From contig JAEUHP010000164.1 in NCBI GenBank assembly GCA_016795295.1, positions 1-32,790 on the forward strand: 32,790 nt of DNA. Reading direction: 5' to 3'. The position numbers and the translations under genes were made by a program. The DNA is from Planctomycetota bacterium. Lineage in GTDB: Bacteria > Planctomycetota > UBA1135 > UBA2386. The notes under the pieces are model-generated. The model saw only the letters and a list, made by a program, of their open reading frames with translations, made no database searches and was not told the DNA's origin. Below are positions 11,076 to 29,396 of the stretch, piece by piece (positions within the stretch are counted from its first letter, which is position 1; the number at the start of each line of letters is the position of its first letter).

Positions 11076-11759
11076 CTACCAAGCGCTGGGCGCCATGGCC
11101 TGCCCCGGATGGTGCGCCAGCACGAACTTCGAGCAGCGACTCGGTCGCAACGGCACCTCTTGCAACCACTTCTGCACTTCTGCCTCGTGCCCGGCGGCAG
11201 CTTTGACCTCGACCACCACGAGTTCGGGCAGCGGGGTTGGCCGGCGCCTCGACACCATGGCGCCAAAGCGCAAGTCGGCCGCGCCCAGGTCCCGGTCCAG
11301 GGTGACCCGCAGCCGGCCGTCCGCCGACCCGAAGTACTCGCGCCGGTACCAGATCCACTGCACCGGCTCCTGCCCCGACAGCAAGCCGCGCGCCGCCGCC
11401 GGCACCCGCTCCCGCAGCGCCGCCAGGAAGTCCCGCCGGGACACACCCTCGACGTCGAGGCGGCCCGCCACTTCGAACAGCGGCTTGTCGCCCAGCACGC
11501 CATGCCGGCGCTTGCACTCGAGTTGTGCCACCACGCCGGCCACCGCCTCGCCGTACCAGCGCACCCGCAGTTTCTGCCGCGCCGCGATGCCGGCCAGATT
11601 GTCGGCGAGCGCTCGGCCGTCGGGCGTGTCGAGATACACACTCTGCACCGTGCGCTCGGGATGCAGTTCGCGCAGCGCCGACGACAGCAGCTCGAGGTTG
11701 GCACGGATCCGGTGCAGGTCGATCCGCCGCCCGACCAGCTTGACCTCATAGCGACTCAT
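11076..11759 (-). CDS. VTC-domain protein (polyphosphate polymerase-type triphosphate tunnel fold)
   Basis: 227 aa, matching a single VTC (CYTH/TTM-like) domain. The tunnel-lining basic and acidic residues expected of the fold are visible: K63/R65/R67 in KLRVRWYG, E81/K83 in LECKRRHG, R139/R140 in WYRREYF, R151 and D155 in LRVTLDRD, E184/K186 in VVEVK, and S210/K211 near the end. In yeast Vtc4 this fold makes polyphosphate from ATP; in bacteria, VTC-domain proteins are often encoded beside CotH-like and DUF4956 proteins, as here, with an unproven role. No transmembrane segment is present, so it acts in the cytoplasm, perhaps tethered by the DUF4956 protein (inference). The start overlaps the stop of the CotH-like gene by four bases (ATGA). 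It could bind another triphosphate substrate instead of making polyphosphate. Confidence 0.88.
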   Translation of the reverse strand: MSRYEVKLVGRRIDLHRIRANLELLSSALRELHPERTVQSVYLDTPDGRALADNLAGIAARQKLRVRWYGEAVAGVVAQLECKRRHGVLGDKPLFEVAGRLDVEGVSRRDFLAALRERVPAAARGLLSGQEPVQWIWYRREYFGSADGRLRVTLDRDLGAADLRFGAMVSRRRPTPLPELVVVEVKAAAGHEAEVQKWLQEVPLRPSRCSKFVLAHHPGQAMAPSAW

Positions 11760-14503
11760 TTGCCGAGAATCCTCTGCCGGTAGAGCGCTTCGACGTCCAC
11801 GTCCTGGGTCGGCATCACTTGGTCGTCGACGAACAGTTCGCAGCCGGTCTGCACCAGCCGGGGCGCCGCCGCCGGCACCCGGCAACCCCGTAGGCGCAGG
11901 CGCGCCGGGCCGAACTCGGGCTTCTTCACGTAGACCGCCGCCAGGAAGTGCTCCACCGCGTCGACCTGGCAACCGGTGAGCAGCGCCTCGGCACGGTCTT
12001 TGGCCGCCACCGCGATCGCCGCAGCCTCGATGTGGCAGGCATCCGCCGTGAGGGACGAAGCCTCGCCGACCGACAGCGCTTTGTCGCCGATGTTGCGGAA
12101 CCGGCAGCCGCGCACCTGCACCGTGCTGCCGCTCACGTCGATCGCGTCCTCCCCCGCATCGGCGAACTCGCAGTCGACGATCGTGCCCGTGACGAAGTCG
12201 CCGTCGAGCAGGTCGCTCGGACCGCCGGCGAACGTGCAGCGCTCGAACTGCACACGGCAGCCGAACACGTTCACCACGTCTTCGCCGCGACCGGCCAGGA
12301 ACTGGCAGTCGCTGGCGTGCACCGGCGCGTCCAAACAGGTCAAGCCACCACTGCTGTGCCAGCCGCCACGCCGGATCTCGCCGGCATGGCGCAGTTCGAA
12401 GTGCTGCAGACGGCTCGGCCCGGCGCTGCCGAGCACCACCATGCCGGCGAAGCCCTGCGCCGGGTCCTGCGCGCCGACCCGCACCGGCCGTTCGGCCGTG
12501 CCGGCAGCCTGCAGCGCTCCGACCACCACCACCGCAGCGGGCGCCAGGTGCAGTTCGGCCCCCGGCGCAAGGTGCAGCGGCACGCCGACCGGCAGCAAGA
12601 AGTCGCCGTCGACCCGGTGGCGCCCTTCGGGCACCCAGAGTTGGCGCTCGCGCAGGTCGTAGTGCAGGAACGGATACCGTTCGAGCGCTTGCGCCAGGGT
12701 GGGCGCCGGGGGCCGGCCGAGGCTCGCCACCTCCGGCATCGGCGCGCGGCGCAGGACCAGGGGTTCGTGCCGCAACTCCGGTTCGGCCACGGGCCGGTAG
12801 AGCACTTCGAGATCGATGCCGGCGCCCCGCTCGGGGTCGGCGTTCTGCCGGATCGCACGCTTCAGCGCCGCCACTTCGCCGAGATCCGCCAGCCGGCGGT
12901 CGATGGGGATGCGAAACCGCACCCGCGCGCCGTCGGCCGGCAGCAACACCGCGCCACCGGGCAACACGGTCACCGCGTCTTCGGCCTCGGGCAGGGCAGC
13001 CAAACCGACCAGGGCCTCCGCCGCCGGCACGATGCGCCCGTTGCGGAACCGGAACCCGACCAGTTCGGTGGCGATGGTGGTGCGCGACCAGGACTCGACT
13101 TCGGCGGCCCGCTCGTCGCGGCCGTCGGCCGAGCGCAGGCCGACCAAGGCAGCCAGGAAACCCGCTGCGTGCCGCGGCCGCGCCACCTGCTGCAGTTCGG
13201 CGGCCTGGGCGCGCAGCAGGCTCTCGAGCGCGGCGGCGAGATCCACGCCCGGCATGCCGCTGCCCGCCGCCTGCATCGCCCGGTCGAACGCGCGCACCTG
13301 CGGCAGCAACTCGGCCAGCAGTGCGTCGACGAACTCGGGCGCCGTGAGCTGGCCGAGTTCGCGCCACGCGGCGACCAGCACTGCGTCGCTGCTGGTGAGC
13401 CAGCGGATCGCCGGGCTGTCGAGCACCAGTTCGCCGCGGTGCACGGTGAGATCCGCCGCCGTGTCGAAGACGATCGGCTCCAGCCGGTCGAGCACGGGAT
13501 CGTGGTACAGCCGCCACTGGATCCAGGAAACGCCGTGGAAGGCGCGGAACAGCGTGTAGAGCGCCAGCCACTTGCCCAGCCGCTCGGCGGCAAACAGGTC
13601 CTCGACCGCGCGCCCTTCGAGCCGGCGCAGCGCCAACAGCTGGCGCACCACCGACACTTCCGGATCGCCGGCGACCGCCAGGCGCTGCACGTCGCGCGCC
13701 ATGGCGATCGCGCGCAGCAAACGCGAGTCCAATCCGGGCGTGGCCAGCAACCGGCGTTCGTCGAAACCCGCGACCTCGGCATCGACCAAGGCCTGGGTGC
13801 GCAACAGACCTTCGGCCGGGGTGCCGGTGCGATGGAAACCGTACTGCAGCGTGGTGCCCCACCGCGCCGACTCGTCGAAGCGCACGATCGGGCCGTCGCG
13901 CCGGCCCTGGGACTCCAACAGCTCCTTGGCCGGGTGCTCTTCGAGGTAGTAGACGCCCTTCTGGGTGCCGTTGATCGCCACGGTGGCGAAGTCGGCTCGC
14001 GGCGCCAGGACACCGCGGCGCCGCGCCACGGCCATCACCACCCACTCCATGGTGTGGCCGCGCGTCTTCGGGTGCTGCACGGCGAACCGGCGCATGCCGC
14101 GAATCGGTGCATCGAGCTCGAACCGCAGCGACCACTGGTCGGTGTCGAGATGGTCGGTCCAATCGCCTTTCAGACGCACCCGGCCGCGCGCCGACTCGGC
14201 ACCGCAACGCACCACCACGGGCACCAGATCGGCGGCCTGCTGTTCCAGAATGCCGGCCGCGAGCGCCGCCGTGCGCCGCGCAGTGAGCCGGTCGAGATCC
14301 GCCGCGGTGAGGCTCAGCTCGTAGTGCGGCAGTTCGGGCAGCGGGCCCGGCTGCGGCGCGGCACTCGGCAACGGCGGCAGGTCGCGGCTCGGCCGCGGCT
14401 CGGCGAGGCTGTGCGTCACCAGCCCGCCGAGCGCGAACGCTCCGAGCGCCACGAGCCACGTGGCGCCGGTGCGTCGCTTCACCTGGTTGCCGCCGATGTG
14501 CAC
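11756..14503 (-). CDS. CotH-like kinase-fold protein fused to a right-handed parallel beta-helix
   Basis: 915 aa. One N-terminal transmembrane segment or uncleaved signal (about 14-33) predicts an extracytoplasmic protein. Residues about 105-360 have the CotH pattern: VRLKGDWTDH (109-118), NGTQKGVYYLEEH (178-190), GKWLALYTLFRAFHG (310-324) and FDTAADL (346-352). Residues about 625-880 are a run of short Cys/Asp/Gly-rich beta-strand repeats (for example DCQFLAGRGEDVVNV, DCEFADAGEDAIDV, GCRFRNIGDKALSV) typical of a parallel beta-helix of the pectate-lyase/NosD type. Bacillus CotH is a spore-coat protein kinase; the Asp residues of its active site look poorly kept here. The likely start is GTG at 14503; GTG at 14482 is an alternative. 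The gene lies 34 bases after the DUF4956 gene and overlaps the VTC gene, so the three form one operon. Confidence 0.8.
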   Translation of the reverse strand: MHIGGNQVKRRTGATWLVALGAFALGGLVTHSLAEPRPSRDLPPLPSAAPQPGPLPELPHYELSLTAADLDRLTARRTAALAAGILEQQAADLVPVVVRCGAESARGRVRLKGDWTDHLDTDQWSLRFELDAPIRGMRRFAVQHPKTRGHTMEWVVMAVARRRGVLAPRADFATVAINGTQKGVYYLEEHPAKELLESQGRRDGPIVRFDESARWGTTLQYGFHRTGTPAEGLLRTQALVDAEVAGFDERRLLATPGLDSRLLRAIAMARDVQRLAVAGDPEVSVVRQLLALRRLEGRAVEDLFAAERLGKWLALYTLFRAFHGVSWIQWRLYHDPVLDRLEPIVFDTAADLTVHRGELVLDSPAIRWLTSSDAVLVAAWRELGQLTAPEFVDALLAELLPQVRAFDRAMQAAGSGMPGVDLAAALESLLRAQAAELQQVARPRHAAGFLAALVGLRSADGRDERAAEVESWSRTTIATELVGFRFRNGRIVPAAEALVGLAALPEAEDAVTVLPGGAVLLPADGARVRFRIPIDRRLADLGEVAALKRAIRQNADPERGAGIDLEVLYRPVAEPELRHEPLVLRRAPMPEVASLGRPPAPTLAQALERYPFLHYDLRERQLWVPEGRHRVDGDFLLPVGVPLHLAPGAELHLAPAAVVVVGALQAAGTAERPVRVGAQDPAQGFAGMVVLGSAGPSRLQHFELRHAGEIRRGGWHSSGGLTCLDAPVHASDCQFLAGRGEDVVNVFGCRVQFERCTFAGGPSDLLDGDFVTGTIVDCEFADAGEDAIDVSGSTVQVRGCRFRNIGDKALSVGEASSLTADACHIEAAAIAVAAKDRAEALLTGCQVDAVEHFLAAVYVKKPEFGPARLRLRGCRVPAAAPRLVQTGCELFVDDQVMPTQDVDVEALYRQRILGK

Positions 14504-14537
14504 GGTGGGTCTGCCGGCCCGCGGACCGGCGCTCCGT

Positions 14538-15218
14538 TCATTCCAGGTGGTCGCGCTCGATCAGGCTGACATCGGCCCCGGGCACCGCCTTGCGCACGTC
14601 GTCGAGCAACGCTTGCAATTGGCTGGTGTCGCGCAGTTCGACGAACAGGCTGGCCTCGAAGCGCTCCCCATGGCAGTCGACGCGCCGCAGGTCGACGTGC
14701 TGGCAGTGGCCACTCACCGCCGGCAGCAGCACCGGCAGCGGCGCCGCCCCGGCAGGTGCCGGAGCGGCCACTTCGAGCACCGTGCGCAGCGGCACCCGCC
14801 CGCCGGGCAGGCCACTGCGCAGCGCCATCACCGCCAGCACCACCACGAACACCAACGCGGTCTCGTAGCGGCGGTCGGCGCCGAGCCCAACGCCGAGGGC
14901 AATCGCCAGGAACAGGTAGGCGAGTTCCTCCGGCTCCTTGATCGGCGTGCGGAAGCGGATGATGGACAGGGCACCGACGAGGCCCAGCGACAGCGCCAGG
15001 GACACCTTGACCACGGAGATGATCAACAGGGTGGTGGCGCTGATGAACACCAGCACCCGCGCCATTTTGGCTTTGTTGCCGAGCACTTGGCCGAAGCGCA
15101 CATAGTGCCAGCCCAGCACATGGCTGAGGGCCAAGCCGATCAGCAGATTGATGCCGAGGTCGGTGAGATGGAGCTCGGCGACGCCAGTCGCCTGGAGCGG
15201 GTTCTGCAGCGAGAGCAT
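14538..15218 (-). CDS. DUF4956-family membrane protein
   Basis: 226 aa. The N-terminal two thirds hold about four hydrophobic segments; the segment LVGALSIIRFRTPIKEPEE followed by LAYLFLAIALGVGLGA is the hallmark of DUF4956. The C-terminal 75 residues are soluble and resemble an ACT- or ferredoxin-like fold (alternating strands, ending DVSLIERDHLE). The molecular function of the family is unknown. Its genomic association with VTC-domain and CotH-like proteins is repeated in this operon, which suggests it is the membrane partner of the VTC protein, perhaps for export or positioning of a polymer (inference). ATG 15218 is chosen; a TTG at 15266 would add a 16-residue, Arg/Pro-rich extension without family similarity. 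The ribosome binding site is weak. Confidence 0.85.
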   Translation of the reverse strand: MLSLQNPLQATGVAELHLTDLGINLLIGLALSHVLGWHYVRFGQVLGNKAKMARVLVFISATTLLIISVVKVSLALSLGLVGALSIIRFRTPIKEPEELAYLFLAIALGVGLGADRRYETALVFVVVLAVMALRSGLPGGRVPLRTVLEVAAPAPAGAAPLPVLLPAVSGHCQHVDLRRVDCHGERFEASLFVELRDTSQLQALLDDVRKAVPGADVSLIERDHLE

Positions 15219-15324
15219 TGCTAAGGGGAAGCAACGCACCAGGCGGGGGCGGCCGGGCGCGGACAAGGCATGTTGCCGCAGGACGCGCGCGAGGGACAGG
15301 GGGTAGTGCAGATCGTTTTCTCAA

Positions 15325-16635: not shown

Positions 16636-16753
16636 GCGCCGAGGACGGTACTGACCGCCGCAGTGGATCGCCACAGCGCCGCATCAAGATTGTCGCGGCG
16701 GCCTGGGGCCTTGCGCCCCCCCCCACACCGCGGCGAACTTGCCGGGCCAGCAC

Positions 16754-18976
16754 ATGTTCGCCTGCATCCGCCTTCGCCCCGGGCTCAAAGCCCTCTGGCT
16801 GCTCGCCGCGCCGTTCGTGGCGGGCTGCAACCGGGAGGCCGAGCCGAGCCAGCGCCCGCCGGCTCCGCCGGCCCACCAGCGCATGCTCGACGTGCTGGCA
16901 GCCGAGGCCCGCCGCGGCGCCAGCGACAATCCGTTCTTCGGCAAAGCCACCCTGGAGCGACTGCACGCCGAGTTCGGCCAGCGCGGCGCGGCGGCGCCCT
17001 GGCAGCTGCGCCTCGAACTCGGCACCGAGGAGCTGCGCGCCGGCCACGAACGCGACGGCATCAAGATCCTCGCCGACGCGCGCTGGGCCCTGCAGCGCGG
17101 GACCATCCCGGGCGATGCTCAGGCCGCCGTCGCGATCAGTTTCCAGCTCGCGACGGGCTGGCTGCGGCTCGCCGAGACCGAGAACTGCTGCGCCCAACCG
17201 ACCCAGGACACCTGCATCCTGCCGCTGCGCGGCAGCGCCATCCACAGCCGTCGCGAAGGCGCCGAACGCGCCGCGGAACTGTTCGTCGAAGTGCTGCGCA
17301 ACACCGCCCCGGACGACCATTGGCACTATGCGGCCCGCTGGCTGCTCAACGTCGCGCACATGGCCCTGGGCGACCATCCCGACGGGGTCCCTGCCGAACA
17401 CCGGATCCCGGCCGAACACTTCGCGCCCGAGGCGCCGTTCCCACGCCTGCTGGACGTGGCCCCCGCCACCGGCCTCGACACCTGGGGGTGTGCTGGCGGC
17501 GTGCTGCTCGAGGACTTCGACGGCGACGAACACCTCGACGTGCTGGCCTCCGACTGGCACCCGAGCGGCCAGCTGCGGCTGTTCCGCAACCAACGCGACG
17601 GCACGTTCGCCGAGGTCACCGAACGCGCCGGCCTCTTCGGCCTCACCGGCGGCCTGCAGCTGGTCTGCGCCGACTACGACAACGACGGCGACCGCGACGT
17701 GCTGGTGCTGCGCGGCGCCTGGAGCTTCGAGTTCGGCCAGGTGCCGAATTCCCTGCTGCAGAACCGGGGCGACGGCACCTTCACCGACGTGACGTTCGCC
17801 GCCGGACTGGCCGAACCGGCGCTGCCGACCCAGACCGCGGCGTTCCTCGACTTCGATCGCGACGGCTGGCTCGACCTCTACGTCGGCAACGAGCACTCGC
17901 CGCGGCAGACCGCACCCTCCCAGCTGTTCCGCAACAACCGCGACGGCACCTTCACCGACGTGGCCGCGGCTGCAGGCGTGGCCAACCACGCCTATGCCAA
18001 GGGCGTCGCCGCCGGCGACTTCGACGCCGACGGTTGGCCCGATCTGTACGTCAGCAACATCGACGGTCCCAACCGCCTCTACCACAACCGCGGCAACGGC
18101 ACGTTCGTCGACGTGGCACCCCGGCTCGGTGTGACCGCCCCCCACGCCGGTTTTCCCACTTGGTTCTTCGACTACGACAACGACGGCGCGCTGGACCTGT
18201 TCGCCGCCAACTACGACACCGGCATCGGCCATCTGGCCTCGCACCTGCTCGGTGGCTCCCTGCACTGGGAACACCTGCGCGTCTACCGCGGCGATGGCAA
18301 AGGTGGTTTCCGCGACGTCACTGCCACGCTCGGCCTGGCCATGCCCGCCCTGCCGATGGGTTCGGGCTTCGGCGACCTCGACAACGACGGCTTCCCCGAC
18401 TTCTACCTGGGCACCGGCGATCCGAACTACTACTCCCTGATGCCGAACCTGCTGTTCCGCAACGAGGGTGGCCAGCGTTTCACCAATGTCACCATGGCCA
18501 GCGGCACCGGGCACTTGCAGAAGGGCCACGGGGTGGCGTTCGCCGACCTCGACGGCGACGGCGACCAGGACCTGTTCTGCGTGGTCGGCGGGGCGGTGCC
18601 CGGGGACGCGTTCCGCAACGTGCTGTTCGAGAATCCCGGCTTCGGCAACCACTGGCTCGCGGTGCGGCTCGTGGGGCAGGAGAGTCCACGCGACGGGCTC
18701 GGGGCGCGGCTGTGCGCGGTGGTGCGCGAAGGCGGCCACGAACGGCGGGTCTACGCGCAGGTGGGCCCTGGTGGCAGTTTCGCCGGCAGTCCGCTGCGCG
18801 TGCACCTGGGGCTCGGGCGCGCGGAGCAGCTGGAGCGGCTGGAGGTGCGGTGGCCGAAAACGGGGCAACTGCAGGTGGTCACCGGGCTGTCGCTGGACCG
18901 TGCGGTGCGGGTGGTCGAGGGGCAGGAGGGCTTCACGACCCTGGACCTGCAGCCGGTGCCGTTCCGCCGCAAGTAG
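16754..18976 (+). CDS. FG-GAP/VCBS-repeat lipoprotein with ASPIC/UnbV C-terminal domain
   Basis: 740 aa. A signal peptide ends in FVAGC, giving lipidated Cys25. Residues 45-230 are alpha-helical (TPR-like) and contain the Cys-rich segment ENCCAQPTQDTCILPL (143-158) often seen in this protein class. Seven Ca-binding FG-GAP/VCBS motifs of the form DxDxDGxxD follow (for example EDFDGDEHLD near 253, ADYDNDGDRD near 306, LDFDRDGWLD near 366, GDLDNDGFPD and ADLDGDGDQD later), consistent with a seven-bladed propeller. The last 110 residues match an ASPIC/UnbV domain (NHWLAVRLVG ... VGPGGSFAGSPL). Such proteins are abundant in Planctomycetota and related bacteria; functions are mostly unknown and are thought to concern surface adhesion or polymer handling. 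ATG 16754 is chosen over TTG 16739 because it directly precedes the signal peptide. Confidence 0.9.
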   Translation: MFACIRLRPGLKALWLLAAPFVAGCNREAEPSQRPPAPPAHQRMLDVLAAEARRGASDNPFFGKATLERLHAEFGQRGAAAPWQLRLELGTEELRAGHERDGIKILADARWALQRGTIPGDAQAAVAISFQLATGWLRLAETENCCAQPTQDTCILPLRGSAIHSRREGAERAAELFVEVLRNTAPDDHWHYAARWLLNVAHMALGDHPDGVPAEHRIPAEHFAPEAPFPRLLDVAPATGLDTWGCAGGVLLEDFDGDEHLDVLASDWHPSGQLRLFRNQRDGTFAEVTERAGLFGLTGGLQLVCADYDNDGDRDVLVLRGAWSFEFGQVPNSLLQNRGDGTFTDVTFAAGLAEPALPTQTAAFLDFDRDGWLDLYVGNEHSPRQTAPSQLFRNNRDGTFTDVAAAAGVANHAYAKGVAAGDFDADGWPDLYVSNIDGPNRLYHNRGNGTFVDVAPRLGVTAPHAGFPTWFFDYDNDGALDLFAANYDTGIGHLASHLLGGSLHWEHLRVYRGDGKGGFRDVTATLGLAMPALPMGSGFGDLDNDGFPDFYLGTGDPNYYSLMPNLLFRNEGGQRFTNVTMASGTGHLQKGHGVAFADLDGDGDQDLFCVVGGAVPGDAFRNVLFENPGFGNHWLAVRLVGQESPRDGLGARLCAVVREGGHERRVYAQVGPGGSFAGSPLRVHLGLGRAEQLERLEVRWPKTGQLQVVTGLSLDRAVRVVEGQEGFTTLDLQPVPFRRK

Positions 18977-20790: not shown

Positions 20791-22788
20791 ATGCCCCTGG
20801 CCCCGCTGCTCGCGACGCTGTTGGCCCCCGCCGCCCTCGTGACGCCCCAAGCTCCGCCAGCGAGTGCACCGCCCCAGATCGCCTGGCAACGCACCCTCGA
20901 CGACGCCCTGGCGGTGCAACGCGCGACCGGCCTGCCGCTGCTGATCGCCGTCAACATGGACGGGGAGGTGTTCAACGACCGTTTCGCCAACACCACCTAC
21001 CGTGATCCGGCGTTCGTCGGCAGCACCGAGGGCTACGTGTGCGTGGTCGCCTCGCCCGACCGCCACACCGAACGCGACTACGACCACCGCGGGCGCCGCA
21101 TCGAGTGCCCGCGCTTTCCCGGATGCACCTGCAGCGAACATCAGGCGATCGAGCCCGAACTGTTCCGCCGCTGGTTCGGTGGGCGGCGCAATGCACCGCG
21201 CCACCTGGCGGTCGCGGCCGACGGCACGGTGCAGTTCGATCGGTACCTCGATGCCAGCATGCAGACGGCGATCGATGCCATCCAGAAGCACCGCGGCACT
21301 CCCGCCGCGGGCGAACGCACCGAATCGCCGTGGACCAGCCGCGCCGCCGCGGCGCGGCGCCAGCTCGAAGCGCGGTATGCCGCGGGCGATGGCCCCACCC
21401 GCGCCGAGCTGCTGCGCGCCGCGGCCAAGGCGCCGCACCCGGCGATCGACCTCGTGCGCATGGGCCTGCGCGAGCTCGATGCCGAACTGGTGACCCTGGC
21501 GGCCACGGCGCTCGCCAGCACCGCCGCACGCGACCACCTGATCGACCTCGAAGACGCCCTGGCCCTGCCGCTGCCCGCCGCCGTGACGACCGCGCTGCTC
21601 GAACGCCTGACCAAACTCGCCGCGGCCGAGCCGGCAGCAAAGCACCTGCTCGCGCACTGGCACGCCAAACCTGCGGTGCCACTTCCCTGGCAGGAGCCCT
21701 GGACGCCGAGCCCGTTCGACGCCAACGATCGGGAGCAGATCGACCAGGCCCTCGACACCGCCGAGGCGGGCGTGCGCACCCAGGCCGGCCCGGCCGAACT
21801 CGCCGCCCTCGCCAACGCCCAGCTCGCCCTCGGCCTGTGGCTCGCGGCACACCGCGGCAAACACGCCGAGTCGTGGCTGGAAGACGCCGAACGCACCGCG
21901 GCGCGGCTCCAGGACGCAGCCTTTGCCCCCCTGGCCGCGGCCGTGGCTGCGGTGGCGGCTTGGCACCGCAGCGATGCCGCAGGAGCAGCGGCGGCGGCAG
22001 CGCGCGCCATGTCCGCCCAAGGCCAGAGCACCCCGCCCAGCGCTTGGCTGGCGGCCCAGTTCGGTGCGGTGGCGGTGCAGAGCACCGCAGCCGCGGTGTT
22101 CGCCCGCGCGAGCCAGGCCGGCACCGACCTCACCAGCGCAGTCGCGCAGTGCAGTGGCTGGCTCGACCTGCTGCGCGCGCGGCGAGCGCTGGACGAGGCC
22201 ACCGCGCTGGCCGGCATCGGCGTGCTCGAACAGGCGGGTTTGCGCCGGCGCGCGACCACGGCGCTGTGCGAGCTGGCGGTGGCGGCGGCGACCTCCGCGC
22301 GGGTGCACGAACGCCTGCGCCAGCGCCTGTGGGTCGACCGCGGCGCCGAAGGCATGCGGCGTGCCGTCCTGGAGCTCGCCGCCGCCCATCCCGAAGGCGG
22401 CGCCAACACCTGGTTCGCCGGCTACGCAGCGCTGCTCGCTGCCGAACAGCACGTGCGCGACGCCGAACCGACCTGGGCCAAGGACGCCTACGACGCCGCC
22501 GTCGAGCAGTTCGCCGCCAGCGCCCACAGCAACCCGGACTTCGCCGATTCGGCCCAGCACTATGCGGTCTTGAGCCAAGTCGGCCGAGCCGCCCTGCGAC
22601 GGCGCGCGGGGGATCTGGCCGGCGCGGCGCAGGATCTGCTGGCGGCAGCCCCCCTGCGTCCGGCCAGCTTCGCCGAACGCGACGGCCTGCAGCAGCAGGG
22701 CGCCGAGCTGGCGACGGCCGTCGCGGCCGAATTGGCCGCAGCCGGCCAGCAGGATCTGGCCCAGCGCCTGCGCGAACTCGGCAAGTAG
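20791..22788 (+). CDS. Secreted protein with thioredoxin-like N-terminus lacking CxxC and helical-repeat C-terminus
   Basis: 665 aa. Residues 1-27 are a probable signal peptide (LAPLLATLLAPAALVTP). Residues about 30-165 look like a thioredoxin-like fold: ALAVQRATGLPLLIAVN, then VCVVASPD, and APRHLAVAADGTVQFDRYLD, which matches the usual 'P..v..d..G....r..g' pattern. The redox CxxC is missing; the equivalent position reads VNMDGEVFND. A different cluster follows, C84, C106, C112, C114 and H117 (IECPRFPGCTCSEHQ). The remaining 500 residues are Ala/Leu-rich helices, probably TPR- or HEAT-like. I do not know a named family. The gene is followed after 20 bases by the GT-C/TPR gene, so the two may form an operon. 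Confidence 0.75.
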   Translation: MPLAPLLATLLAPAALVTPQAPPASAPPQIAWQRTLDDALAVQRATGLPLLIAVNMDGEVFNDRFANTTYRDPAFVGSTEGYVCVVASPDRHTERDYDHRGRRIECPRFPGCTCSEHQAIEPELFRRWFGGRRNAPRHLAVAADGTVQFDRYLDASMQTAIDAIQKHRGTPAAGERTESPWTSRAAAARRQLEARYAAGDGPTRAELLRAAAKAPHPAIDLVRMGLRELDAELVTLAATALASTAARDHLIDLEDALALPLPAAVTTALLERLTKLAAAEPAAKHLLAHWHAKPAVPLPWQEPWTPSPFDANDREQIDQALDTAEAGVRTQAGPAELAALANAQLALGLWLAAHRGKHAESWLEDAERTAARLQDAAFAPLAAAVAAVAAWHRSDAAGAAAAAARAMSAQGQSTPPSAWLAAQFGAVAVQSTAAAVFARASQAGTDLTSAVAQCSGWLDLLRARRALDEATALAGIGVLEQAGLRRRATTALCELAVAAATSARVHERLRQRLWVDRGAEGMRRAVLELAAAHPEGGANTWFAGYAALLAAEQHVRDAEPTWAKDAYDAAVEQFAASAHSNPDFADSAQHYAVLSQVGRAALRRRAGDLAGAAQDLLAAAPLRPASFAERDGLQQQGAELATAVAAELAAAGQQDLAQRLRELGK

Positions 22789-22808
22789 CGAACCACGCCG
22801 TCCGGACC

Positions 22809-24911
22809 ATGCCCGAGCATCCCTTCGAGCCCCAAGCTCCAGCGCGCGGCCGCGGCCGCTGGGCGATCGCCTGGGTGCTGGGCGTCGCCGCGTTGCTGCG
22901 GTTCGCCTACTGGCGCGAATTGGCCGCGTCCCCCGAAGTGGCAGCGCCGGCCCTCGACGCGGCGTTCCACGACCATTGGGCCCGTGCGCTGGTGACCGGC
23001 GACTGGTCGCCGCCGGTGCACTTCCCCGACCCGCAGATCCACACCACGCCGTACTTCCGCCCGCCTGGCTATCCGTACTTCTTGGCGGCACTCTACGCAC
23101 TCACCGGGTGCCGGCCGCTCGCCGCGATCGCTCTGCAGATGCTGCTCGGCCTGTGCAACTGCTGGCTGCTGTTCCGGATCGGCCGCAACCTGATCGGCTC
23201 GCGCGGCGCGCTGCTCGCCGCGGCGGGCCTCGGCTGCACGTGGACCAGCATCTACTTCGAAGGCGAACTGCTGGCGCCGGTGCTGTTGGTGCACCTGCTG
23301 CTGTGGCTCTTGTGGGCCGTGCAGCGCTGGAGTGCCACCGGCAGCACCCGCGGTGCTCTTGGCACGGGCGCCCTGCTCGGCCTGCTCGCACTGTGCCTGC
23401 CGAATGCGCTGCTGCTCTGGCCGGTGCTGGTCCTGTGGGCGATCTGGTGGGCACGGCGGCCCAACCAGCCACGCCCGCCGGCGCCGGGCACCGGCCGCCG
23501 CTTCGCCCTGGCCAGCGCCGCCGGCCTCGCCCTCGTGATCGCGCCCGCCACGCTGCGCAACCACGCAACCGCCGGCGACTGGGTCCTGATCTCGTCGAAC
23601 GGCGGCGTCAACCTCTACATCGGCAACCACCCGCACGCCGACGGCCACTCGGCGAGCATCCCGATCCTCGGCGACCTCACCGGCCTCTCGGGTTGGACGT
23701 GTTTCGACCAACCAGCACTCGTGCGCGGCGTCGAACGGCTGGTCGGGCGCCCCCTGCGCGCCAGCGAAGTGTCGGCATTCTTCTCGGGCAAGGCGTGGGA
23801 CCATCTCACCAGCGCCCCACTCGCCAGCGCCGGCCTGTGGCTGCGCAAGGCGGCGCTGTTCTGGGGCCCGCTCGAGGTCGCCAACAACCGGGAACTCGAG
23901 CTGGTGCGCGCCGATTCCGCGGTCCTGGCCTGGCTGCCCGGCTTCCCGATCGTCTGGCCGCTGGCGCTGCTGGGCGCGTTGGTCTTGCTGCGGCCGCGCA
24001 CACCGGCCCGTGGCCACCCACTGCTGTGGCTCGCCGCGGCGCTGGCCCTCGCCCTGTTCGCCAGTTACCTGCCGTTCTTCGTCGCCGGGCGTTACCGCGC
24101 GCCGCTGCTGCCGATCCTGTGGCTGTTCGCCAGCGAGGGCCTGCGGCACCTGCTGGCGCTGCGCCGGGCCCCGCACCGCGGTCCGGCCCTGGCCTGGCTC
24201 GGGGCAGCCCTGGGCCTGCTGGCGCTGGCCCACGTGCGCACCACCGCCTACCAGCCCAACCCAGGCCGCTACCACTTCCAGACCGGGGATGCGCACCGGC
24301 GGCTCGGGGACCACGATGCCGCGATCGCGGCGTTCCGCCGCGCCATCGCCCTGGCCCCGGACTCGGCCGAAGCGCACAACAGCCTCGGCGCGTTGCTGCT
24401 GCAGCGCGGCGAGGCCAACGGGGCACTGGCCAGCCTGCAGCGTGCGGTACAGGCGTCGCCACAGTTCGCCGAAGCGCGCTTCAATCTGGGCAAAGCCCTC
24501 GCGGCCTCCGGCCAGCTCGAAGCCGCGGTGGCGACGTTCGCGGCGTTGGCCGACCACGATCAGGCAGGCCCCGCCGCCCGCCTGCAGCTCGGCGCGTTGC
24601 TGCTGCAGCTGCAGCGCCCCGCCGAGGCCGCGCCGCACCTCGAACGCGCTGCTCGCGACCGGCCGGCAGATCCTGCACCCGCCTACCTGCACGCAATGGC
24701 CCTGCTGGACCTCGGCCAGACCAGTGCGGCGCGCGCACGGCTCACGGCCCTCGTGGCCTTGCACCCCACCCACGCCGATGCCCATGTGGTGCTCGCCGAG
24801 CTGCTGTTCGCCGCCGGCGATCGCGCCGGCGCGGCCGCGCAGCTCCAGAAGGCGCTGGCCATTGCCCCGCGGCATCCCGGTGCCCTGGCACTGCGCGAAC
24901 GGCTGCGCTGA
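22809..24911 (+). CDS. GT-C-type membrane glycosyltransferase (GT39/ArnT-like) fused to TPR repeats
   Basis: 700 aa. The N-terminal 470 residues have about 11-12 transmembrane segments of the GT-C fold (PMT_2/ArnT type), with a candidate catalytic Asp in the first periplasmic loop (D50 in APALDAAFHDHWARAL) and the conserved TPYFRPPGYPYFLAALY at 80-96. Such enzymes use a polyprenyl-phosphate sugar donor at the outer face of the membrane. Residues about 489-700 are roughly six TPRs (FQTGDAHRRLGDHDAAIAAF, then NSLGALLLQRGEANGALASL, and so on) that would lie on one side of the membrane and could bind acceptor proteins. ATG 22809 follows the preceding stop by 20 bases; no strong ribosome binding site is seen. 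The acceptor and sugar are unknown. Confidence 0.85.
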   Translation: MPEHPFEPQAPARGRGRWAIAWVLGVAALLRFAYWRELAASPEVAAPALDAAFHDHWARALVTGDWSPPVHFPDPQIHTTPYFRPPGYPYFLAALYALTGCRPLAAIALQMLLGLCNCWLLFRIGRNLIGSRGALLAAAGLGCTWTSIYFEGELLAPVLLVHLLLWLLWAVQRWSATGSTRGALGTGALLGLLALCLPNALLLWPVLVLWAIWWARRPNQPRPPAPGTGRRFALASAAGLALVIAPATLRNHATAGDWVLISSNGGVNLYIGNHPHADGHSASIPILGDLTGLSGWTCFDQPALVRGVERLVGRPLRASEVSAFFSGKAWDHLTSAPLASAGLWLRKAALFWGPLEVANNRELELVRADSAVLAWLPGFPIVWPLALLGALVLLRPRTPARGHPLLWLAAALALALFASYLPFFVAGRYRAPLLPILWLFASEGLRHLLALRRAPHRGPALAWLGAALGLLALAHVRTTAYQPNPGRYHFQTGDAHRRLGDHDAAIAAFRRAIALAPDSAEAHNSLGALLLQRGEANGALASLQRAVQASPQFAEARFNLGKALAASGQLEAAVATFAALADHDQAGPAARLQLGALLLQLQRPAEAAPHLERAARDRPADPAPAYLHAMALLDLGQTSAARARLTALVALHPTHADAHVVLAELLFAAGDRAGAAAQLQKALAIAPRHPGALALRERLR

Positions 24912-26873: not shown

Positions 26874-28301
26874 TCAGCGCGCCGTCCAGCGCACGAAGGT
26901 GCCGACCGCCGCGTCATAGCGCCACACCGGCAGCGCCGGATCGGCAGCCAAGCCGCTGAGCTCGGCCGCGTCGACCGCGCGGTGGTCCGAAGTGGTCCAG
27001 CACCTCGGCACGCGCAACAACAGCCATGGCCCATCGATCCCGCGCGCCGCGAGGGCTTCGGCCAGGCCCCAGTTGGCGACCGGGATGTCGTTGTCGCCCC
27101 CCACATGGTCCGGAGCGTCCACCAGCGCGACGCGTTGGCCGGGGCCAGCCGCAGCACGCGCCGCAGCGGCTCCATCGCCAAGGCGCTGCAGCAGCTGACC
27201 AGCCTTTTGCAGCTCCCGGATGTCGACAGCGTGATCGAAGGCCCACAACGCCCCCACCAAGACCGGCACCCCCCAAACCCGCAGCGCCCCGCCCACTCGG
27301 TCGATGCTGCGCGCCAGCGCGATCGCCAGCAGCGCCGCCCCGAAGTACGCGTAGCGACCGACGAACCCCGTCGTCGCAACCGGCAGCACGAGGTCGAGCG
27401 GCACGATGGCCAGCAGCCAACGCGTCGTCGCGTCGCCGCGCCAGAATGCCCATGCCCAGGCGCCGGCAAGTCCGGCAACCGCGGCACCCCCGAGGACGAG
27501 CCCGGCCCCGCCGCTGCGCAGGCCGTCGAGTGCCGGCAGCCGCAACCACTCCGGCGCGAACGCGAGCACTGCCCGCGCGACGTTCGCCGCAATCGCCCCG
27601 CCCTGCGCCGCACCGTGGTAGCTGCGCTGTTGCAGCACTCCGACATAGAACGCGTAGCCAGCCGCCAGCAGCACGAACCCGAGCAGCATTGGCTGGCGGA
27701 GCGCTGCGCAGGCGGCCCTGGCGCGCTGCAGCAGGGTCCCCGAAGCGAGCGCGACCAGCCCGAGGCCGACGACCACCGGCGCGATCACGCAACTCTGATG
27801 GAAGCCGAGGGCGATCGCGAGCACCGCGACCATGCCCGCACCCAAAGCCGCCGACGGTCGCTGAGACCAGGCCACCGCCGCCCAGCTGAGCCACAACAGA
27901 CAGCAGGTGCGTGCCGGACCGCTGACCGCGGCGAGCCAAGTCAGGCCTTTGGCGCTCGGCCAGGCCAGAAACAGCAGCATGGCGCACCACGCCGCACGCC
28001 GCGAGGCACCCAGCCGCACGGTGATGGCAAACACCAGCAGAGCGGCCCCGACGTGGCAACCGAAGGTCACGGCGCGACCGACGGCAGGTTCGGCGCCGAC
28101 ACGATCGAACAGCCAGAACCCGAGATGCTGCAGCGGCCGAAACGGCACCAGCGCCGGATCGAACGCGCTCGCCGGTCCGGCGAAGCCACGTACCAGCGCC
28201 AATTGCGTCCAGCTCTCCGAGAGCAACGGCATGCCGGCCACCGCCGCCCAAGCAGCGGCGACGACGGCAAGCACGACCACGGCGGGAGCGAACCGCGTCA
28301 T
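26874..28301 (-). CDS. Polytopic membrane protein, probable GT-C-type glycosyltransferase
   Basis: 475 aa with about ten to eleven hydrophobic segments and a soluble C-terminus of about 100 residues. The first loop contains LLSESWTQL and then FDPALVPFRPLQHLGFWLF (47-65), where the FRPLQ phrase (54-58) is typical of GT-C/PMT_2-like membrane enzymes with a large N-terminal loop; an acidic catalytic residue could be E29, as the usual Asp is not obvious. The ATG overlaps the stop of the GT2 gene by four bases (ATGA), so the two proteins are made together. Pairs of a GtrB-like GT2 and a polytopic partner are known to make and then use a polyprenyl-phosphate sugar, which is the most likely role here (inference). 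A flippase or an uncharacterised membrane protein is an alternative. Confidence 0.75.
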   Translation of the reverse strand: MTRFAPAVVVLAVVAAAWAAVAGMPLLSESWTQLALVRGFAGPASAFDPALVPFRPLQHLGFWLFDRVGAEPAVGRAVTFGCHVGAALLVFAITVRLGASRRAAWCAMLLFLAWPSAKGLTWLAAVSGPARTCCLLWLSWAAVAWSQRPSAALGAGMVAVLAIALGFHQSCVIAPVVVGLGLVALASGTLLQRARAACAALRQPMLLGFVLLAAGYAFYVGVLQQRSYHGAAQGGAIAANVARAVLAFAPEWLRLPALDGLRSGGAGLVLGGAAVAGLAGAWAWAFWRGDATTRWLLAIVPLDLVLPVATTGFVGRYAYFGAALLAIALARSIDRVGGALRVWGVPVLVGALWAFDHAVDIRELQKAGQLLQRLGDGAAAARAAAGPGQRVALVDAPDHVGGDNDIPVANWGLAEALAARGIDGPWLLLRVPRCWTTSDHRAVDAAELSGLAADPALPVWRYDAAVGTFVRWTAR

Positions 28302-29257
28302 CGCCGCGCCTCCGGCGGGACGTCGCGGCGCAGCACGTAGAGCGGGCGGCCCTTGGCCTGTTCGAACACGCGGCCGAGGTAGGCACCGAGCACCCCGATG
28401 AACACGATCTGCAGGCCACCGAGGATCAAGACCACCGAGATCAGCGACGGCCAGCCGGCGACGACGTCACCCGTCCACAGCGCCTTGCCGAGCACGTAGG
28501 CGAGGTAGAGCGCGCCGAGCACGGCGACGGCGCAGCCGACCCAGATCGCCAGCCGCATCGGCGCCGTCGAAAAGCCGAGCATGCCGTCGACGGCGAGCGC
28601 CACGCGCTTCCGCCAACTGAACTTCGTGGTGCCAGCAGCGCGCGCCGGTGCATCGAAGTCGAGGAACCGGCGGCGGAAACCCACCCACGCCAGCATGCCG
28701 CGCAGCATGCGGTGGCGCTCCGGCATCGCGACGAGCTGGTCGCGCACCCGCTTCGTCAGCAGGCAGAAGTCGGCGGCGGACGGCTCGATCGGCACCTCGG
28801 ACAACCGATTCAGCAGCCAGTAGAAGCCGCGCGAAGTGACGCGCTGCAGCCAGGGCGCGGCGGTGCGGCGACGGATCGTCGACACGATGTCGCAGCCTTC
28901 GCGCCACTTCGCGAGCAGCGCCGGGAGCAGTGCCGGCGGGTGCTGCAGGTCGGAGTCCATCAGCACGACGAGATCGCCCCGGGCGTGGTCGAGGCCGGCA
29001 CTGAGGGCGATCTGGTGGCCGAAGTTGCGCGACAACGCCACCGGCCGCAACCGCGCGTCCTCGGCGGCCAGCCGGTCGAGCGCGGCGAGCGTGCCGTCGC
29101 GGCTGCCGTCGTCGACGAGCACCATCTCATGGTCGAACTCCGGCAGCGTGGCGAGCACCCGCTGCAGTTCGCGTACGAACAACTCGATCGCGCTCTCTTC
29201 GTTGAAGCATGGCGCGACGACGCTCAGCAGCAGGCGGGGGGCGGCGGCAGCTGGCAT
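28298..29257 (-). CDS. GT2-family polyprenyl-phosphate glycosyltransferase (GtrB/DPM-like)
   Basis: 319 aa. The N-terminal GT-A domain shows VVAPCFNEE (13-21), VLVDDGSRDGT (46-56, D49/D50), ALSRNFGHQIALSAG (74-88) and the metal-binding DSDLQHPP (D101, D103; 101-108). The acceptor region includes MLRGMLAWVGF and KFSWRKRVALAVDGMLGFS, typical of dolichol- or polyprenyl-phosphate mannose/glucose synthases of the GtrB and ArnC group. Two C-terminal transmembrane helices follow (about 225-285). ATG 29257 is chosen over a GTG at 29272 because the family begins close to the LLLSVVAPCFNEE strand. The donor sugar cannot be deduced. It is the first gene of a two-gene unit with the polytopic protein downstream. 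Confidence 0.9.
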   Translation of the reverse strand: MPAAAAPRLLLSVVAPCFNEESAIELFVRELQRVLATLPEFDHEMVLVDDGSRDGTLAALDRLAAEDARLRPVALSRNFGHQIALSAGLDHARGDLVVLMDSDLQHPPALLPALLAKWREGCDIVSTIRRRTAAPWLQRVTSRGFYWLLNRLSEVPIEPSAADFCLLTKRVRDQLVAMPERHRMLRGMLAWVGFRRRFLDFDAPARAAGTTKFSWRKRVALAVDGMLGFSTAPMRLAIWVGCAVAVLGALYLAYVLGKALWTGDVVAGWPSLISVVLILGGLQIVFIGVLGAYLGRVFEQAKGRPLYVLRRDVPPEARR

Positions 29258-29396
29258 GCGTTCGTGCCGCACGCAGCGGCCTCACTAGTGTGCCGTCCCA
29301 ACGAGCGCCGTGCGAGCCACCCCTTGGATTCCTCCCAAGCCGAGACCGGTGCCGTCGCAACGCCCAACCGAACCGCCCGGCGCCCAGACACCGGAT

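Follow-up and report, generated by a model that had tools for sequence, protein, structure and literature searches.

A gene trio of the DUF4956, CotH/beta-helix and VTC families conserved across bacterial phyla and in two archaea, with a possible role in polyphosphate-linked modification of the cell surface

A 32,790-nucleotide (nt) stretch of a Planctomycetota genome (contig JAEUHP010000164.1, assembly GCA_016795295.1; hereafter, the window) encodes three adjacent genes on the minus strand, spanning positions 11076-15218: a membrane protein of the DUF4956 family, a protein that joins a CotH kinase-fold domain to a parallel beta-helix (hereafter, the CotH/beta-helix protein), and a protein with a VTC domain. 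We found that this trio is a conserved unit across phyla, that the linkage between the VTC and DUF4956 genes is near-obligate within the order of the source organism, and that a gene set reported as specific to Pel loci extends to many phyla and two archaea. We tentatively propose that the operon supports polyphosphate-fed phosphorylation of a cell-surface glycan, a reading that seems possible to us but falls short of probable.

Layout of the locus

The DUF4956 gene (15218..14538, minus strand; ATG start, with TTG at 15266 as an alternative start; 226 amino acids, aa) is separated by 34 bases (14504-14537) from the CotH/beta-helix gene (14503..11756, minus strand; GTG start; 915 aa), which overlaps the VTC gene (11759..11076, minus strand; ATG start; 227 aa) by the 4 bases ATGA. 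Third-position G+C is 0.88-0.89 in all three genes, and the window has 70% G+C. The Pfam matches of all three proteins exceed the curated cut-offs (PF16316 for DUF4956, PF08757 together with PF13229 for the CotH/beta-helix protein, and PF09359 for VTC), and an NCBIfam search gave no match for any of them. An earlier note on this DNA, made without database searches, had described three minus-strand genes with this spacing, overlap and range, assigned their products to these families, and placed DUF4956 in the membrane, the CotH/beta-helix protein outside the cytoplasm and the VTC protein within it. The gene coordinates and the Pfam matches bear out the layout and the family calls, and the predicted locations hold.

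Conservation and linkage of the trio

Within the order, VTC is present in 85 of 121 genomes, DUF4956 in 88 and CotH in at least 93. The linkage sample comprised 113 VTC places, derived from 114 rows (two G116:C9 rows were merged), and 124 DUF4956 rows. At 111 of the 113 VTC places, which come from those 85 genomes, a DUF4956 gene lies on the same strand within 6 kilobases (kb), and the remaining two VTC places sit at the ends of contigs (3211 bases is the full length of one contig, and in the other case the match starts at base 10). The genes are mostly close to each other, with 90 of the 111 pairs at most 600 nt apart, and 14 of the 21 wider-spaced pairs have a CotH/beta-helix gene in between, as in the window. 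CotH genes were found in 15 of 20 regions chosen from the 90 close pairs, two of these regions being cut below 8 kb by contig ends. Conversely, for 30 CotH/beta-helix places selected in the order, with weaker partial matches excluded, both partners are present within 6 kb in 20 cases (on the same strand in 18), and DUF4956 only in two.

Beyond the order, a pattern scan of named genomes yielded at least 531 relatives of the CotH/beta-helix protein, of which 80 were kept as named loci; these were chosen via two conserved patterns of the protein, which partly builds in the conservation of the patterned residues. The named loci span Planctomycetota, Sulfidibacter, Chloroflexota, Bacteroidota, Prochlorococcus, Omnitrophota, a Woesearchaeon, Methanogenium and others. 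All three families are found in 55 of them, the CotH/beta-helix gene with DUF4956 in 10, with VTC in 5 and alone in 10. A same-strand trio, with both partners at most 3 kb from the CotH/beta-helix gene, is present in 50 of the 80 loci, both archaea included, a count that is reduced by short contigs. The gene order DUF4956-CotH/beta-helix-VTC dominates (39 loci), followed by CotH/beta-helix-DUF4956-VTC (6) and DUF4956-VTC-CotH/beta-helix (5). The pairwise distances of the three proteins correlate with one another (r of 0.75, 0.80 and 0.81, matched in none of 500 permutations), common descent contributing to this agreement. A survey of co-occurrence, which the earlier note had proposed as a check, thus came out strongly positive.

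The immediate neighbours of the trio in the window, on the same strand, are an AI-2E transporter gene upstream (187 nt away) and a gene for a transglutaminase-like protein downstream (155 nt away; its Pfam transglutaminase matches are below the curated cut-off). In tblastn searches (E 1e-10) of loci from other genomes, the flanks of which vary in length, neither of these genes had a match, whereas DUF4956 matched 73 and VTC 79; it is thus the trio that forms the conserved unit.

The window's genome encodes a second full-length CotH/beta-helix protein (G000:C161:78052-80808, L011; 1123.6 bits with the family profile). Orphan copies of this kind occur in some further genomes of the order as well. 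A second operon around the C161 gene was considered and rejected, VTC and DUF4956 not being found in an 18-kb stretch around it; the adjacent gene, on the opposite strand, encodes a PilT/GspE-like ATPase, as judged from its motifs by reading. The same genome also contains a second VTC-DUF4956 pair (G000:C109:2110-3388, L010), for which a CotH partner was likewise rejected, with none found up to 12 kb into the 19-kb contig. An apparent natural VTC-DUF4956 fusion in another genome (G074; one 518-aa frame) was discarded because an ambiguous base separates the two parts and the VTC end is garbled.

The VTC protein

The VTC protein matches PF09359 with an E-value of 6.5e-19, and the family profile (A5) matches yeast Vtc4 (3g3q) over nearly the whole domain (E 1.5e-15), which indicates homology of the tunnel domains. 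Residues K7, E184, K186, S210 and K211 align with K200, E426, K428, S457 and K458 of Vtc4 (native numbers derived from the offset between 5iiq and 8i6v_E). In alignment A5 (33 rows), K7, E184, K186 and K211 are invariant and S210 is present in at least 90% of the rows; K7, E184 and K211 are also invariant in alignment A4 (47 rows), so that the catalytic residues are retained. In Vtc4, K458 is catalytic, and four basic residues that guide the chain are replaced by glutamates in tripolyphosphatases, according to excerpts of PMC4641920. By our matching of residues, two of the positions of these glutamates would be occupied in the family by R3, present in at least 90% of the rows, and by K186. The protein has no hydrophobic segment (highest 19-residue hydropathy 0.67). 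Judging by these alignments, it resembles a polyphosphate polymerase and likely converts ATP to polyphosphate in the cytoplasm. Given that the window's genome also encodes a PPK1-type kinase (PF02503), VTC would be a special-purpose enzyme.

The CotH/beta-helix protein

The CotH/beta-helix protein matches PF08757 (E 3.5e-7, profile positions 1-111 of 322 only) and PF13229 (E 9.6e-7). We identified 193 homologs at E<=1e-3 among 7994 candidates scored, and most of the 120 matches listed cover more than 90% of the query. The structural model (predicted local distance difference test score, pLDDT, 92.1; predicted template modelling score, pTM, 0.72) contains an N-terminal hydrophobic helix at residues 12-33 (14405..14470, minus strand) with a hydropathy peak of 1.61; the peak reaches at least 1.6 in 91 of the 97 family rows. 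This helix is likely a signal anchor or signal peptide, and the protein is predicted to be membrane-anchored or exported.

Residues 56-446 (13166..14338, minus strand) adopt the CotH kinase fold in the predicted structure, with the AMP-bound structure 5jda as the best fold match. The position of the catalytic Asp (D228 of B. subtilis CotH) is taken by His323 (codon 13535..13537, minus strand), an equivalence that was established by alignment with three canonical CotH proteins of the window's own genome; the HMMER alignment to 5jd9 sets the catalytic Asp one column later, and no row has Asp there either. In the named loci, the His323 column contains His in 75 of 80, the other five having R, S, E, G and a gap, and Asp is present in this column in all 18 CotH proteins from the 20 regions around close VTC-DUF4956 pairs. 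The second essential Asp (D251) is represented by Asp347 (codon 13463..13465, minus strand), which is kept in 97 of 97 rows and in 78 of the 80 named loci. The kinase half also has the conserved basic residues K112, R127, K193 and R201. The protein thus differs from the spore-coat kinase CotH of B. cereus and B. subtilis in the replacement of D228 by an invariant His, in the joined beta-helix and in the N-terminal membrane helix. In the excerpts available of the work on Bacillus CotH, the D228Q mutant of the B. subtilis protein is dead and the phosphate donor in vitro is ATP (PMC7821199). Three loci with VTC-DUF4956 pairs (L142, L143 and L144) encode large CotH proteins (open frames of 1081-1488 aa) that partially match the profile of the CotH/beta-helix family and have a divergent catalytic loop, GDPFH or GDPYH.

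Residues 589-903 (11795..12739, minus strand) form, in the predicted fold, a right-handed parallel beta-helix of the AlgG type. This half accounts for 17 of the 34 invariant columns of the protein, compared to 15 in the kinase half. The invariant residues include E741, D742, N745, D764, D767, D769, D786, D789, D807, K808, E814, K835, D836 and K861; in the model, the acidic ones fall on successive turns, and the set is predicted to line a groove. The conserved basic residues are K808, K835, K860 and K861. AlgG, a periplasmic mannuronan C5-epimerase, relies on a catalytic His. The identity to AlgG is 11-12%, and, unlike AlgG, the CotH/beta-helix family lacks any invariant His or Tyr in this part: no His reaches 90% in residues 600-915 of the 97 rows, the nearest being H610 at 84%, and the family's own invariant set is Asp/Lys-rich.

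The DUF4956 protein

The DUF4956 protein is a member of PF16316 (E 1.7e-15; 57.6 bits against a curated cut-off of 30.6). The AlphaFold model (pLDDT 86.4, pTM 0.71) and the hydrophobic segments indicate a helical hydrophobic part followed by a C-terminal ACT/ferredoxin-like domain that is predicted to be cytoplasmic. The sequence has no match among solved structures; the C-terminal part has weak fold matches only, to ACT-like domains and the C-terminal domain of MgtC (E 0.014), and the remaining fold matches listed involve the C-terminal domain or unrelated proteins. In alignment A3 (54 rows), many invariant residues fall within GALSIIRFRTPIKEPEELAYLF (residues 82-103), and the conserved RFRTPxK stretch could contact a polyanion.

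Genes around the trio in other genomes

Open reading frames within 6 kb of the 50 same-strand trios were clustered by BLAST links, and one to three members per cluster were run against Pfam. The recurrent clusters, with frequencies that stand without a random-gene control, are GT2 glycosyltransferases (10 of 50 loci), MBOAT proteins (4), calcineurin-type phosphoesterases with export-type N-termini (7; the member tested from L051 gave no Pfam match) and pyrophosphatases (7, in five Bacteroidota loci directly 3' of VTC). The N-termini of the pyrophosphatases and phosphoesterases are, by eye, lipobox-like, signal-like or anchor-like, with those of the pyrophosphatases lipobox-like. Together, the two phosphohydrolases are found in 13 of the 50 loci, on the strand of the trio in 10. 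The pyrophosphatase identity was found in all 7 genomes, and each of these has another, higher-scoring pyrophosphatase elsewhere; the copy near the trio is therefore an addition. These flanking genes fit a system that points outward and to phosphate, with a glycan context provided by GT2 and MBOAT.

Three Bacteroidota loci (L076, L093 and L099) share the order DUF4956-CotH/beta-helix-VTC-pyrophosphatase-MBOAT-SGNH-like (SGNH by eye), and the MBOAT and SGNH-like genes on the pyrophosphatase side resemble the alginate-type acetylation pair. In five other loci, four of them from named Planctomycetota, the trio is directly followed by a gene for a conserved protein of 370-418 aa in open frames (L048:13354-14523, L051:13240-14493, L052:12525-13694, L053:12560-13669 and L065:4164-5327); two members tested per library gave no Pfam or NCBIfam match, and the protein is possibly SGNH-like, as judged by eye.

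Comparison with described systems

The same three families make up an accessory cluster of Gram-positive pel loci (SIR_1591-1594 in S. intermedius), as far as the excerpts of the two reports go (PMC7112168, PMC12345266). The pel neighbours listed are cotH, poly-phosphate polymerase, DUF4956 and DUF4832 genes (PMC7112168), and the S. intermedius products are described as a secreted CotH-domain protein, an MgtC-like protein, SIR_1592, that has four transmembrane segments and an ACT domain, and a polyphosphate polymerase domain (PMC12345266). From this description, SIR_1592 appears to be a DUF4956 protein. Deletion of SIR_1592 raised Pel and that of the CotH gene lowered it, and each of the two deletions reduced aggregation in dilute sputum medium by more than 50% (PMC12345266). 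The streptococcal CotH carries FN3 and sits in the pel operon, whereas that of the window carries a beta-helix. PelG (PF16933) has no match in the window's genome, which is 91% complete and is the only genome in which pel genes were looked for, so that the trio does not adjoin a pelDEADAFG operon there. The three-gene arrangement is stated, in the accessible part of a 2025 report, to be absent outside the Pel locus (PMC12345266); the joint occurrence of these families in numerous further genomes speaks against this.

The trio resembles the yeast VTC complex in a tunnel domain of the Vtc4 type, the catalytic residues of which match, and in a membrane-protein gene that is a near-constant neighbour of bacterial VTC. 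It differs in that the catalytic and membrane parts are on separate proteins and the polymer would be destined for the outside of the cell; DUF4956 matches no solved VTC membrane subunit by sequence, nor among the best 50 fold matches listed. In C. perfringens, NELoc-2 comprises VTC, 'tubulin', CotH and chitin-synthase-like genes, with VTC, CotH and a putative glycosyltransferase gene close together, and shows no function in the excerpted text (PMC2879425). Our guess, by size and place, is that the 'tubulin' genes are DUF4956. An SH3-CotH protein is described from stalk-forming bacteria in an excerpt of PMC8250860. The earlier note held the role of such trios to be undescribed; this has to be amended in light of the deletion phenotypes of the related pel-associated trios but stands for biochemistry, none of which was found for the trio in the literature searched, nor any account of the CotH/beta-helix family.

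Possible function of the trio

Proteins and glycans outside many cells carry phosphate groups, and, to our knowledge, ATP is not expected there. Under the polyphosphate-fed phosphorylation that we tentatively favour, VTC would polymerise phosphate from ATP in the cytoplasm, DUF4956, its predicted partner, would pass the chain outward, and the CotH/beta-helix protein, predicted to be exported, would spend polyphosphate, rather than ATP, as the donor. The acceptor would be a cell-surface glycan, presumably bound by the AlgG-like beta-helix, and exported hydrolases, where present, would clear leftover pyrophosphate outside. Such a two-compartment relay, each step of which we infer, appears to be the most economical account of the trio. 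A polyphosphate-linked surface function is suggested by the VTC-DUF4956 linkage, the Vtc4-type residues, the exported-type phosphohydrolases, the glycan-gene context and the S. intermedius deletions. A fuller version, which we consider rather unlikely as a whole, is an extracytoplasmic machine powered by polyphosphate that is spun out via DUF4956, in which the His-type CotH enzyme phosphorylates the glycan held by the beta-helix, perhaps through phospho-His323. If true, it would be a general answer in bacteria and archaea to the problem of energising phosphoryl transfer without ATP. The trio makes the energising of extracellular phosphorylation in prokaryotes testable with three genes and could assign functions to DUF4956 and bacterial VTC proteins.

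Several observations weigh against polyphosphate-fed glycan phosphorylation. Two of them are the most serious, the VTC deletion that has been published and the possible pseudokinase nature of the His-type CotH. In S. intermedius, aggregation and Pel persist in the VTC deletion, with no change reported in the part of the text available (PMC12345266), and the polymerase may therefore be dispensable in that organism; this result argues against polyphosphate being essential there. All 97 rows of alignment A2 have His in the column of the catalytic Asp, and, with this Asp missing, the kinase half is possibly a pseudokinase. Moreover, VTC is not the sole candidate polyphosphate enzyme in the window's genome, PPK1 being present. 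The membrane part of DUF4956 has no match among the best 50 fold matches listed, none of which reaches E 0.001. Neither partner is found within 6 kb of 8 of the 30 CotH/beta-helix genes in the order, some at contig ends and one being the C161 gene of the window's own genome. In 3 of the 13 loci with phosphohydrolases the gene is on the opposite strand only, the single PF00719 pyrophosphatase of the window's genome is on another contig, and in the window the trio has neither a polysaccharide gene nor a phosphatase gene next to it.

The replacement of the catalytic Asp would also suit a polyphosphate coat, made and exported by VTC and DUF4956, to which the CotH/beta-helix protein serves as a polyphosphate- and glycan-binding anchor rather than a phosphotransferase. 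The conserved basic residues of both halves (K112, R127, K193, R201; K808, K835, K860, K861) are compatible with such an anchor, and the apparently exported pyrophosphatases near the trio elsewhere could trim or recycle the polymer; however, Asp347 is retained and the beta-helix has invariant acidic residues, which is more than a binding scaffold requires, and a row of invariant aspartates would bind polyphosphate poorly. We regard the coat as unlikely. Somewhat less doubtful, with half of the invariant columns in the beta-helix, is a scheme in which this half does the catalysis, as an epimerase, lyase or glycosidase with an exopolysaccharide as its substrate. The kinase fold would then be a pseudokinase with a regulatory role, and VTC-DUF4956 would gate the system in response to phosphate or nucleotide. 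This leaves unexplained the Vtc4 catalytic residues retained in VTC and the nearby phosphohydrolases of both kinds, whose N-termini are of the export type.

A conventional ATP-dependent surface-protein kinase, accompanied by a VTC protein that is a tripolyphosphatase or a nucleoside triphosphate-binding housekeeping protein and merely co-occurs, is improbable: the Asp to His replacement is universal in A2, ATP is by general knowledge not expected outside the cell, and the VTC-DUF4956 linkage is far from incidental. The CotH fold with its AMP-bound best match would agree with such a kinase. So would the use of ATP by Bacillus CotH in vitro (PMC7821199, in excerpt), but the basic R3 and K186 of VTC probably lie where tripolyphosphatases carry glutamates (PMC4641920, in excerpt). 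The analogy to an ordinary CotH Ser/Thr kinase, suggested by the earlier note's comparison to the Bacillus protein kinase, is weakened by the invariant His and by the AlgG-like beta-helix with its share of invariant columns. The note's broader suggestion, that a phosphate polymer is used in surface modification, fits the exported-type phosphohydrolases, glycosyltransferases and MBOAT proteins near the trio in other genomes. Taken as a whole, the note's interpretation is supported in part.

Other genes of the window

Two glycosyltransferase genes are found at a distance from the trio, one encoding a PMT_2-like glycosyltransferase joined to TPR repeats (21039-24911, plus strand; about 6 kb away) and the other a GT2 glycosyltransferase (28298-29272, minus strand; about 13 kb away). 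Upstream of the AI-2E transporter gene and divergent from it is a gene for an FG-GAP repeat/UnbV_ASPIC protein (16739-18976, plus strand).
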